Positions 44,701 to 63,262 of a stretch of DNA of 64,000 bases are shown piece by piece. Within the stretch, counting starts at the first letter, position 1. Every line of letters begins with the position of its first letter. A program made the position numbers and the translations under genes. The notes under the pieces are model-generated. The model searched no databases and was not told the origin of the DNA. It worked only from the letters and a program-made list of their open reading frames with translations. This DNA comes from Streptomyces albogriseolus. GTDB taxonomy: Bacteria; Actinomycetota; Actinomycetes; Streptomycetales; Streptomycetaceae. The stretch spans positions 62,001 through 126,000 of the forward strand of contig BMVA01000019.1 in assembly GCA_014650475.1 (NCBI GenBank), read 5' to 3'.

Positions 44701-45937
44701 CGCGCCGCGGCCCGCCGGGCACCGGCCAGCCCGCCTCGGCGACGTCGGCGTCGGCGATGCGCAGTCCGCCCGTCCCGCCGAGCGCGCGGTTGGGGGTGTC
44801 GAAGGGGACCTGGCGGGGCACCGTGCCGTGCTCCAGGGCGAGGACGGCCTTGACGACGCCGGCGATGCCCGCGGCCGTGTTGAGGTGGCCGACCACGGAC
44901 TTGACGGAGCCGACGGCGGCGGGGTGCGGACGGTCGCCGCCGTAGACGCGTTCCAGTGCGGCGAACTCGACGGGGTCGCCGAGGTGGGTGCCGGTGCCGT
45001 GGGTCTCGAGCAGACCGACCGAGTGCGGGTCGACGCCGGCGACGGCGAGCGCCTCGCGCAGCACCGCCTCCTGACCCTCGGGGGACGGCGCGTGGTAGTC
45101 CATCTTGCGGGCGCCGTCGTTGTTGACGGCGCTGCCGCGCAGCACGGCGCGCACCGGGTCCCCGTCGGCGAGGGCGTCGGCCAGGCGGCGCAGCACCAGG
45201 GCGCCGCCGCCGTTGCCGAAGAGGGTGCCGTCGGCCCGGTCGTCGAAGGGCCGGCAGGTGCCGCTGGGCGAGAGGATCATGCCGGGGGCGGCGAGGTAGC
45301 CGGCCTGCGGGAAGTGCAGCGAGGCGGCGGCGACGACCGCCAGTTCGCACTCCTCCGCCAGCAGCGCCTCCGCGGCCAGGTGGAGGGCCACCAGCGCGCT
45401 CGAGCAGGCGGTCTGCACGGTCATGCTCGGCCCGGTCAGGCCCAGCTTGTACGACACCCGGGTGGCGGCGAAGTCCTTGTCCGCGGAGGAGAAGCGGATC
45501 ATTCCGGCGGCGTCCAGCTCGGTGATGCCGACCGGCGGGAGGGTGGGCTGTCCGACGGAGACGTAGGCGGCGGTGCGCAGTCCGGTGCGGTCGGGTGCGA
45601 AGCCGGCGTCCTCCAGGGCGTGCCAGGCGGTCTCCAGCAGCAGCCGCTGCTGCGGGTCGAGCCATTCGGCGTGCTGGGCGCTGTAGCCGAAGAACTCGGC
45701 GTCGAAGGCGTCGGCGTCCTCGAGCACCACCCCGGCGGGCACGAAGTTCTCCCGGCGCACGGTCTCGGGGTCGTGGCCGAGGGCGACGAGTTCGGCCGGG
45801 GTGTGACGGCGGATGCCGGTACGGCCCTCGCGCAGCAGCTCCCAGAGCTTGTCGACGGAGGTGGCGGGCCCGAACGCGCAGGCCATGCCGACGACGGCGA
45901 CGGCGTTGGGGTCGAGGTCGGGGGGCAGTTCGTTCAT
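38708..45937 (-). CDS. Trans-AT PKS: KS-DH-KR-ACP-KS-ACP-ACP
   Basis: 2409 residues. Module 1: KS about 10-440 (C178 in QTACSSA, HGTGT, VVGH), DH about 570-810 (H585 in DHVVAGRPVLP, VLDGALQT), KR about 830-1250 (Y1187; the cofactor motif reads NGMGALA, so the last Gly is Ala), ACP S1362. Module 2: KS about 1440-1880 (C1634) and two ACPs (S2198 in GVDSILSVEF, S2317 in GLDSILGAEF) with no reductive domain. The tandem ACPs resemble beta-branching acceptors, though Phe replaces the usual Trp. The C-terminal helices (LDALLAAVRDNRLTVEQALQ) look like a docking domain for the next PKS. The first KS accepts a glycyl-extended chain. Expected output is CH=CH then C(CH3)=CH after the cassette acts. (Pro-Ala) linkers separate domains. 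It overlaps the upstream megasynthase by 4 nt. Confidence 0.94.
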   Translation of the reverse strand: MNELPPDLDPNAVAVVGMACAFGPATSVDKLWELLREGRTGIRRHTPAELVALGHDPETVRRENFVPAGVVLEDADAFDAEFFGYSAQHAEWLDPQQRLLLETAWHALEDAGFAPDRTGLRTAAYVSVGQPTLPPVGITELDAAGMIRFSSADKDFAATRVSYKLGLTGPSMTVQTACSSALVALHLAAEALLAEECELAVVAAASLHFPQAGYLAAPGMILSPSGTCRPFDDRADGTLFGNGGGALVLRRLADALADGDPVRAVLRGSAVNNDGARKMDYHAPSPEGQEAVLREALAVAGVDPHSVGLLETHGTGTHLGDPVEFAALERVYGGDRPHPAAVGSVKSVVGHLNTAAGIAGVVKAVLALEHGTVPRQVPFDTPNRALGGTGGLRIADADVAEAGWPVPGGPRRAAVSSFGIGGTNAHVVLEQAPAPARPAGAAGSVPDGGRRWAVLSAHTETALRELAGALAGAVEPLSLPDVVHTLREGRSHRRTRLVVGATTTDELRDKLREFAADGRLDDGHVPDAYRAWAAGEGPLPAADDEQRTPRRVRLPGYPFARVRRPRPGAALVRTVRPDEPLAADHVVAGRPVLPAAAQLDLALTAVRRDGTDTARLTDVAFHRPVEVTAAVTLSAAVADGAVTVASDVPHTEARVSATGSAAAGRIDLTALRAAHPDVAEPADLYRWFAAHGVSYGPAFQVLRELRHGEEGALARVEAPETPADGDTVSPYVLDGALQTVAGCVLREDLGGETFIPFAVDALTLHAGLPQEVWVHIRPLPLAGRGRRVRKYDVTVADPDGHVVLTLTGLALRPVPRPEGTAARELPADVHLFAPATAPLTAAGGGTSGPTGGPDGAEEAPPGPVVVIGDAPVDDATLVLDDPRDPEAAAATGAELVRRLGDGTAPPVVVWPITASARGTADAGLRMLALLRALLRPLARRGARVIVPYPDNPLDDAAAVSGAGIAALGRSLAGENHRFELTALALDPGAGPDAVARAVRRPAPASRRLAVGGDGTPATTELRPLPVPAAHREPFRRGGRYWINGMGALAALLAAHLLDRYAAHVVLTGRSAADGGRAAELARLTARAERTGGSVRYHRLDATDADAVRDRAVRLSAEGPVHGVLHCAGVLRDAYVLRKETADAADVIAAKLTAAVALDEATADWPLDCFVVYSSVSGALGSPGQADYAFANAAADALVALRARRVRAGLRRGRSLSVGWPYWADGGMRTAGEAEQVLGGLGMRPMPGTTGLAVLETLLAADDDAAHPAPVVLYGDRKRLLESFPLLREDPAAPAPAPAPAPAPAPAPAPAPGPAPVPSSASGARDGATVLVERLRTVVAEATRTPLKDVTGERPFDDLGIDSLLAIRVVEMLEADFGRLSKTLLFECRTVAELAEHLTEEFPERCAELGGGARPDDSRPSAPPEPEPPASATAPLPAVQVLGEPPAQPPSPAAEADPRAVAVIGVAGRFPQADGLDQLWSNLLAGRDSITEVPRDRWDAEALYDPDRSRVDRTYTKWGGFVDGVETFDAPLFSISPREASTVDPQARLFLEACWAAVENAGYTPDRLVTTGDAVHRKDVGVFVGAMYGEYQLHEAEERLRGNPVLANSAYWSIANRVSYFFDFQGPSTAVDTACSSALTALHLAVESLRAGSSKVAIAGGVNVLIHPNKYFMLGQGRFASGDGRCRSFGAGGDGYVPGEGVGAFVLKPLPDALRDGDHIHAVIRGTAANHGGRTNGYTVPNPRAQADLVTKALRDAGLTAADLDYVEAHGTGTALGDPIEIRGLTTAFARDGVKGPGELPIGSVKSNVGHLESAAGAVALAKVLLQLRHRTLVPSLHATPANPEIDFGRVPFTVQRDVAPWATRDGTERPLRAGISSFGAGGGNAHIVVEGPPPAPPRPAPGPRPVVAFLSARTPAALAATARDLRAFLLAARERGEEPALVDVALTLAAGRVDLDHRAAVAADSPDALLDGLAAVAEGRPRPWPRAEAAADDPVREWLDGGRVDRVAVCGAGPDARRVPLPHYPFERVRCWYDLQIGHLHRHGLGTAAHEPSLSRPHLRDFGRPRRGPGTTGARGTEPGRESAPAAGPAPASPPKAEPQERPSMTPDRKISLRPLGAAAPAPAPSPAAAVPAAPAPSAAPPVVPAPVVPASAAPARADDALVAQVADGVREVLAGVLYAEPGELDTGQTFQALGVDSILSVEFVALVNARYGTDVKATELYDHPTPDAFARHVAAQTGGGAPQRPASEQAVPSPAPVPAQAPAPAPAPAPAPAAPADGDRVAAVLGTLREQLAETLYCDLHDVDPGASFSSLGLDSILGAEFVAFVNNAYGLKEKAGVLYDHPSPRALAAHIAARTADPSPAAAPASAAPGGAAGGGVAAAELDALLAAVRDNRLTVEQALQLLPQHS

Positions 45938-63262: not shown

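Follow-up and report, generated by a model that had tools for sequence, protein, structure and literature searches.

The starter unit of group A streptogramins has been reported as isobutyrate derived from valine. In Streptomyces virginiae, the bkdAB cluster reportedly encodes a fused E1, and disruption of bkdA is said to abolish virginiamycin M. The title of a 2007 paper names this cluster as a plausible starter source, and the legend to Fig. 1 of a 2023 paper (PMC10006238) lists a branched-chain dehydrogenase (BCDH) among the domains and enzymes of the Vir/Sna assembly line. Because of that legend entry, the coupling of such a dehydrogenase to the streptogramin A polyketide synthase (PKS) is already known. 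Here we analyse a 64,000-nucleotide stretch of S. albogriseolus DNA (contig BMVA01000019.1, positions 62,001 to 126,000; hereafter the window), in which the first synthase, PKS1, opens with an E2-type front end and is preceded by a gene for a fused E1. Judged from its genes alone, the region is a trans-acyltransferase (trans-AT) cluster of the group A streptogramin class, of virginiamycin M / pristinamycin II type, which combines a PKS with a nonribosomal peptide synthetase (NRPS) and is accompanied by class B genes. This assignment follows from the synthase order, VirA/F/G/H (SnaE1-E4) with a beta-methylation cassette between the second and third synthases, which matches the pristinamycin II order SnaE1-E2, snaG-L, SnaE3-E4 given in excerpts of a review (PMC6963833) and is consistent with the list of Vir/Sna modules (PMC10006238). 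The likeness to these two systems, drawn from their descriptions and not from the VirA, SnaE1 or BkdA sequences, extends to a stand-alone AT serving alongside AT-less modules, both present in the window cluster, and to the reported isobutyryl starter and listed BCDH (PMC10006238, PMC6963833). They differ in that the excerpted sources give isobutyryl-coenzyme A (isobutyryl-CoA) and not direct loading of an ACP. What goes beyond the known coupling is the proposed CoA-free loading and the way in which an E2 core would work on a PKS; the window itself is a further example.

The other described systems that resemble this locus are NapB/NapC/NapD, QncN/QncM/QncL and SclQ1-4, in which an E1 and a lipoyl-E2 pass an acyl group to an ACP (PMC7570522, PMC6335953, in part; likened here by description only). 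Those systems draw on a ketose phosphate and use a free-standing ACP (76 aa), and their E2, joined to E1 beta or separate, feeds an NRPS, whereas in the window the E2-ACP is fused to the PKS that it feeds. Some product was still made after deletion of sclQ1-4, and supplementation with glycolic acid brought it back (PMC6335953, in part), a warning that a bypass of such systems is possible in vivo.

The front end of PKS1 and its E1

The features that make up the putative priming system are as follows.

61283-63262, minus strand: fused E1 alpha/beta of 2-oxoacid dehydrogenase type, 659 aa, GTG start (Pfam E1_dh, Transket_pyr and Transketolase_C)
45934-61272, minus strand: PKS1 megasynthase, 5112 aa, lipoyl-PSBD-E2-ACP-KS-DH-KR-MT-ACP-ACP-KS-DH-KR-ACP-C-A-PCP (open reading frame call and Pfam)
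61021-61236, minus strand: lipoyl domain, aa 13-84 of PKS1 (Biotin_lipoyl PF00364, 6e-13)
60769-60882, minus strand: degenerate peripheral-subunit-binding-like (PSBD) region, aa 131-168, recognised by position, basic block and predicted helices
60049-60675, minus strand: E2 acyltransferase core, about aa 200-408, with S339 (60256-60258), H383 (60124-60126) and N387
59728-59916, minus strand: loading ACP, aa 453-515 (PP-binding PF00550), phosphopantetheine serine S479 (59836-59838) in GLDSA
58105-59649, minus strand: KS1, aa 542-1056, for the first extension (PF00109/PF02801/PF16197; NF045894 over 542-1056)

A preliminary description of this DNA had placed an E2-type front end on a PKS, with the E1 gene 10 bp upstream. 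The reading frames, the Pfam domains and the gap all bear this out, the distance between the E1 stop codon (61283-61285) and the PKS1 ATG (61272) being exactly 10 nt, and K51, H383 and S479 lie at the positions it named. The lipoyl lysine K51 (codon 61120-61122) is carried by the motif YEMEHDKAAVEI (EHDKA), and the AlphaFold2 (AF2) model of the lipoyl domain has a pLDDT of about 90. The E2 core matches Pfam 2-oxoacid_dh over aa 227-404 (2e-18), with S339 within LSHLG and H383 within AFDHTLLNG. Its predicted monomer model shows the 2-oxoacid dehydrogenase E2 fold, the model's alignment having included nine ordinary E2s that bias it toward such a fold. The ketoacyl-synt match starts at aa 542, and no AT domain was found in PKS1-4 (Pfam, E<=0.001). 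The locus shares with the canonical branched-chain (BCKDH), pyruvate (PDH) and 2-oxoglutarate (OGDH) dehydrogenase complexes the E1 and E2 homology, the fold and the catalytic residues. It departs from them in the fusion of E2 to a PKS and in a degenerate PSBD, and, set against nine ordinary E2s, two loops of the core are shortened (about 8 and 13 aa) and DHxxxDG has Asn in place of Asp. The array had been described as a complete lipoyl domain, a PSBD and an E2 core; Pfam supports this for the lipoyl domain and the E2 core but is silent on the PSBD. Within the PSBD-like region the basic block RRIPPRTRAHARRLG is nearly invariant among the compared copies, and both structure models predict its helices, three of them across aa 134-181.

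The E1_dh match covers aa 24-313 (4e-46), with Transket_pyr and Transketolase_C in the same frame. The GTG start at 63262 is backed by conservation from residue 1, as compared with one ortholog. For both halves of the protein, the closest relatives in the PDB are subunits of the Thermus thermophilus 2-oxoacid dehydrogenase, transketolases being far weaker matches. On sequence grounds E1 is classed as a 2-oxoacid dehydrogenase. A branched-chain preference is suggested but not settled by the sequence, and the scores by themselves single out no one substrate. Three further E1s of the same genome have loops resembling SHTSSDDHRVYR. A separate E1 alpha, with a 794-aa open frame, is encoded on this contig outside the window (C19:17298-18110) and is perhaps a phenylpyruvate dehydrogenase for phenylglycine synthesis.

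Conservation and distribution of the module

The preliminary description had proposed a database search for lipoyl-E2-ACP-KS proteins. Ten other clusters with a readable PKS1 front were found, each counted once (L018, L024, L025, L051, L052, L053, L056, L060, L061 and L062), so that the arrangement is not a one-off; the contig scan used two peptide patterns only and is narrow, not a census. Both the E1 and the E2-ACP-KS were matched in all ten, and E1 adjoins the E2-PKS in 11/11 clusters read, window included. The frames of Streptomyces sp. SW4 (L024) are broken, so that this cluster does not enter the counts of E2 residues; the plasmid of S. albogriseolus LBX-2 (L060), near-identical to the window, was counted as a copy. 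K51, S339, H383 and S479 are invariant in 10/10 intact copies including the window, and so is HTSSDD of E1 in all 11 copies. Of the nine other intact clusters, eight have a front end 59-70% identical to that of the window, and in L060 the identity is about 100%. Chance is excluded as the origin of the E2-type front end because it is conserved across these other intact clusters. Between the E1 stop codon and the start of PKS1 lie 3-21 nt in the window and in seven further clusters, and in NBC_01294 the two genes overlap by 4 nt.

The contig scan yielded relatives in Streptomyces sp. YIM 130001, SW4 and CB01635. Five linear Streptomyces plasmids carry the cluster (S. albogriseolus LBX-2, S. xanthii, NBC_01361, NBC_01445 and NBC_01294), corresponding to the 5/44 matching plasmid records in which the match spans 80% or more of the E2-ACP query. 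These plasmids (L051, L052, L060, L061, L062) are large, and class B genes accompany the streptogramin A cluster in several. The cluster of genome G021 is syntenic with the window, and the cluster is also present in genomes G142, G168, G200 and G213. In G200 the HMGS contig stops before PKS1 and E1 is on a different contig. In G168, a single 8.5-Mb contig (C1) has two equal-scoring copies each of E1 and HMGS, one towards either end (E1 at 390199-392223 and 8140370-8142394), as if the cluster lay within long terminal inverted repeats.

E1 orthologs were found in 6/246 Streptomyces genomes. In a phylum-wide set of 246 genomes, an ortholog at E<=1e-110 was found in the window's own genome only, and seven others had fused E1s at 38-43% identity. 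All 100 relatives searched with the E2-ACP query match at E<=0.001, via ordinary E2s or ACPs, and scores above 100 bits were obtained only in the window and G021. HMGS was matched in 22/296 genomes at E<=1e-100, clusters of other kinds among them. Three of these were examined (G174, G193 and G158; HMGS identity 67, 55 and 54%), and neither E1 nor E2 had a match in the whole 35.8-kb contig C177 of G174, in 20 kb of G193 or in 11 kb of G158. A streptogramin relative such as griseoviridin may lack the E2 fusion. Three loci from other actinobacteria (L072, L074 and L075) contain single frames of 1170-1174 aa in which a fused E1 alpha/beta is followed by a lipoyl-type EGDKA motif; these appear to be E1 and E2 in one chain and are possible relatives of the module donor.

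Proposed priming of PKS1 and the alternatives

That the dehydrogenase primes PKS1, as the preliminary description proposed, is well supported, because the adjacency of E1 and PKS1 is conserved, the catalytic residues are invariant and the product class has a reported valine-derived isobutyryl starter. We propose that E1 with thiamine diphosphate (ThDP) would decarboxylate 2-oxoisovalerate and reductively isobutyrylate lipoylated K51. The acyl group would then be handed by the E2 core (S339/H383) to the neighbouring ACP, on its phosphopantetheine thiol (S479), instead of to CoA, KS1 would accept it for the first extension, and a housekeeping E3 acting in trans would re-oxidise the dihydrolipoyl group. 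This complete route, from 2-oxoisovalerate through isobutyryl-lipoyl and isobutyryl-ACP to KS1, is the one we consider probable. Within it we infer the identity of the 2-oxo acid, the direct transfer in cis and the service of E3 in trans; the direct transfer, without free isobutyryl-CoA, is likely by analogy with the glycolyl-ACP systems of NapB/C/D type and because the ACP is fused to E2. We hold to be evenly balanced the further reading that the PKS loading module is itself part of a 2-oxoacid dehydrogenase complex, in which E2 shifts a branched acyl group off its lipoate and onto an ACP of the same chain, CoA taking no part, and in which the core works within the PKS dimer and no longer builds the usual 24- or 60-mer cage.

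Several observations weigh against the proposed route. E2 active sites sit between the subunits of a trimer, whereas PKSs are dimers. The canonical ThDP motif is GDG, and E1 carries GDA at that position. The PSBD stretch (aa 120-188) matches no Pfam family even at E<0.5. No E3 match was found within the window, the one E3 of the genome above the family cut-off lying on another contig (C2:263581). The substrate signals of E1 are mixed: the alpha half scores 142 bits with the T. thermophilus enzyme, 103 with human BCKDH, 90.5 with PDH and 89.3 with bacterial 2-oxoisovalerate dehydrogenase, and the beta half 207, 163, 192 and 188 bits in the same order, so that PDH surpasses the bacterial 2-oxoisovalerate enzyme in both. 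The top NCBIfam models are PDH E1 models, every one below cut-off. Finally, spacing is not constant, the gap in NBC_01445 being about 350 nt (L062 19650-20000); the extra stretch there is foreign-looking, contains stops and directly follows the usual PKS1 start, and a later in-frame ATG persists.

The strongest competitor is that the E1/E2 complex makes free isobutyryl-CoA beside the PKS, the ACP or KS1 then being loaded from CoA by the trans-AT or another enzyme. The review excerpts giving isobutyryl-CoA as the starter (PMC6963833) favour it, to the detriment of direct transfer, and the E2 core retains the usual active-site Ser and His. However, the ACP directly behind E2 renders a CoA detour unnecessary and Pfam finds no loading AT in PKS1, and we regard this explanation as rather unlikely. 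The PDH-leaning E1 beta and NCBIfam scores would suit another 2-oxo acid, pyruvate or 2-oxobutyrate, and hence a streptogramin A with a different starter, but against the isobutyryl starter reported for the class this is improbable. A slightly fainter prospect is that E2 forms glycolyl-ACP, E1 having drawn the two-carbon unit from a ketose phosphate. We considered this model first, via NapB/NapD, as the parts (E1, lipoyl-E2 and ACP) are those of NapB/C/D, QncN/L/M and SclQ1-4, and set it aside because the cluster is of streptogramin A type, for which an isobutyryl starter is reported; transketolases are also far weaker PDB matches, yet NapB-type E1s may likewise resemble 2-oxoacid dehydrogenases.

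The degenerate PSBD and the shortened core loops could mark E1/E2 as a relic, KS1 being primed by another enzyme, but with catalytic residues invariant in every intact copy this is very improbable. Least credible of all is that E1 belongs to a different pathway of the supercluster, for example the making of phenylglycine (PglB/PglC): streptogramin B does require a phenylpyruvate dehydrogenase (PMC10685826, in part), but a separate E1 alpha exists on the contig (C19:17298) and E1 adjoins the E2-PKS in every cluster read. An on-line dehydrogenase complex had also been called an unusual priming route. This is only partly right, since the front end is the loading region of a streptogramin A line, for which BCDH is already listed (Vir/Sna; PMC10006238) and bkdAB was named in 2007. 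No description of lipoyl-to-ACP loading in streptogramins was found among the literature matches listed, and PMC10933834, in part, added nothing; this is not a claim of absence from print.

Surroundings of the locus and significance

The remaining synthases and cassette genes of the cluster lie downstream of PKS1.

38708-45937, minus strand: PKS2, 2409 aa, with two KS, DH, KR and three ACP, in the position of VirF/SnaE2 (68% to G021)
34288-38396, minus strand: beta-methylation cassette, order as in S. xanthii
37098-38396, minus strand: stand-alone KS of the cassette
35818-37071, minus strand: HMGS
35060-35845, minus strand: ECH
34288-35070, minus strand: reading frame in the place of the second ECH, no Pfam match
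28209-34256, minus strand: PKS3, 2015 aa, with two KS, KR and two ACP, in the position of VirG/SnaE3
20460-28187, minus strand: PKS4, 2575 aa, with two condensation-type stretches, A, PCPs, a nitroreductase-type domain and KS, in the position of VirH/SnaE4
19554-20453, minus strand: stand-alone acyltransferase (trans-AT; PF00698, 1e-33)

The downstream side also has genes for a phosphopantetheinyl transferase, a luciferase-like monooxygenase, a thioesterase and a regulator of the SARP type. A second SARP gene is found on the upstream side of the contig, together with genes for a PrmC-like methyltransferase, PabAB, a P450, a cyclodeaminase-family protein and an AMP ligase, the last four kinds being presumably those expected for streptogramin B precursors. 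The nitroreductase-type domain lies inside the NRPS (20460-28187), adjoining the terminal KS, and is a candidate for the oxazole-forming dehydrogenation, a step that PMC10006238 terms not conclusively identified. Deoxysugar-type genes (NDP-hexose 2,3-dehydratase, epimerase/dehydratase and nucleotidyl transferase) and aromatic-polyketide-type tailoring genes (FAD monooxygenase, SnoaL-like and SDR) adjoin the streptogramin cluster at 139-12152 of the window, perhaps as a second antibiotic cluster. In S. xanthii a TnpB-family gene lies between the last synthase and the trans-AT (L085 26415-27584), and on the same plasmid an LnmK-family protein accompanies another HMGS cassette (L086 2384-8395).

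Should direct transfer prove false, the locus would still be a tidy metabolic channel, noted in part already. If it is true, streptogramin A synthases would draw carbon straight from 2-oxo acids, with no acyl-CoA pool, and the front end would be a portable module with which to load branched starters. The presence of an E2 core on a PKS that is a dimer would then pose a structural puzzle, and the isobutyryl-CoA step would be corrected in descriptions of a clinically used class of antibiotics.
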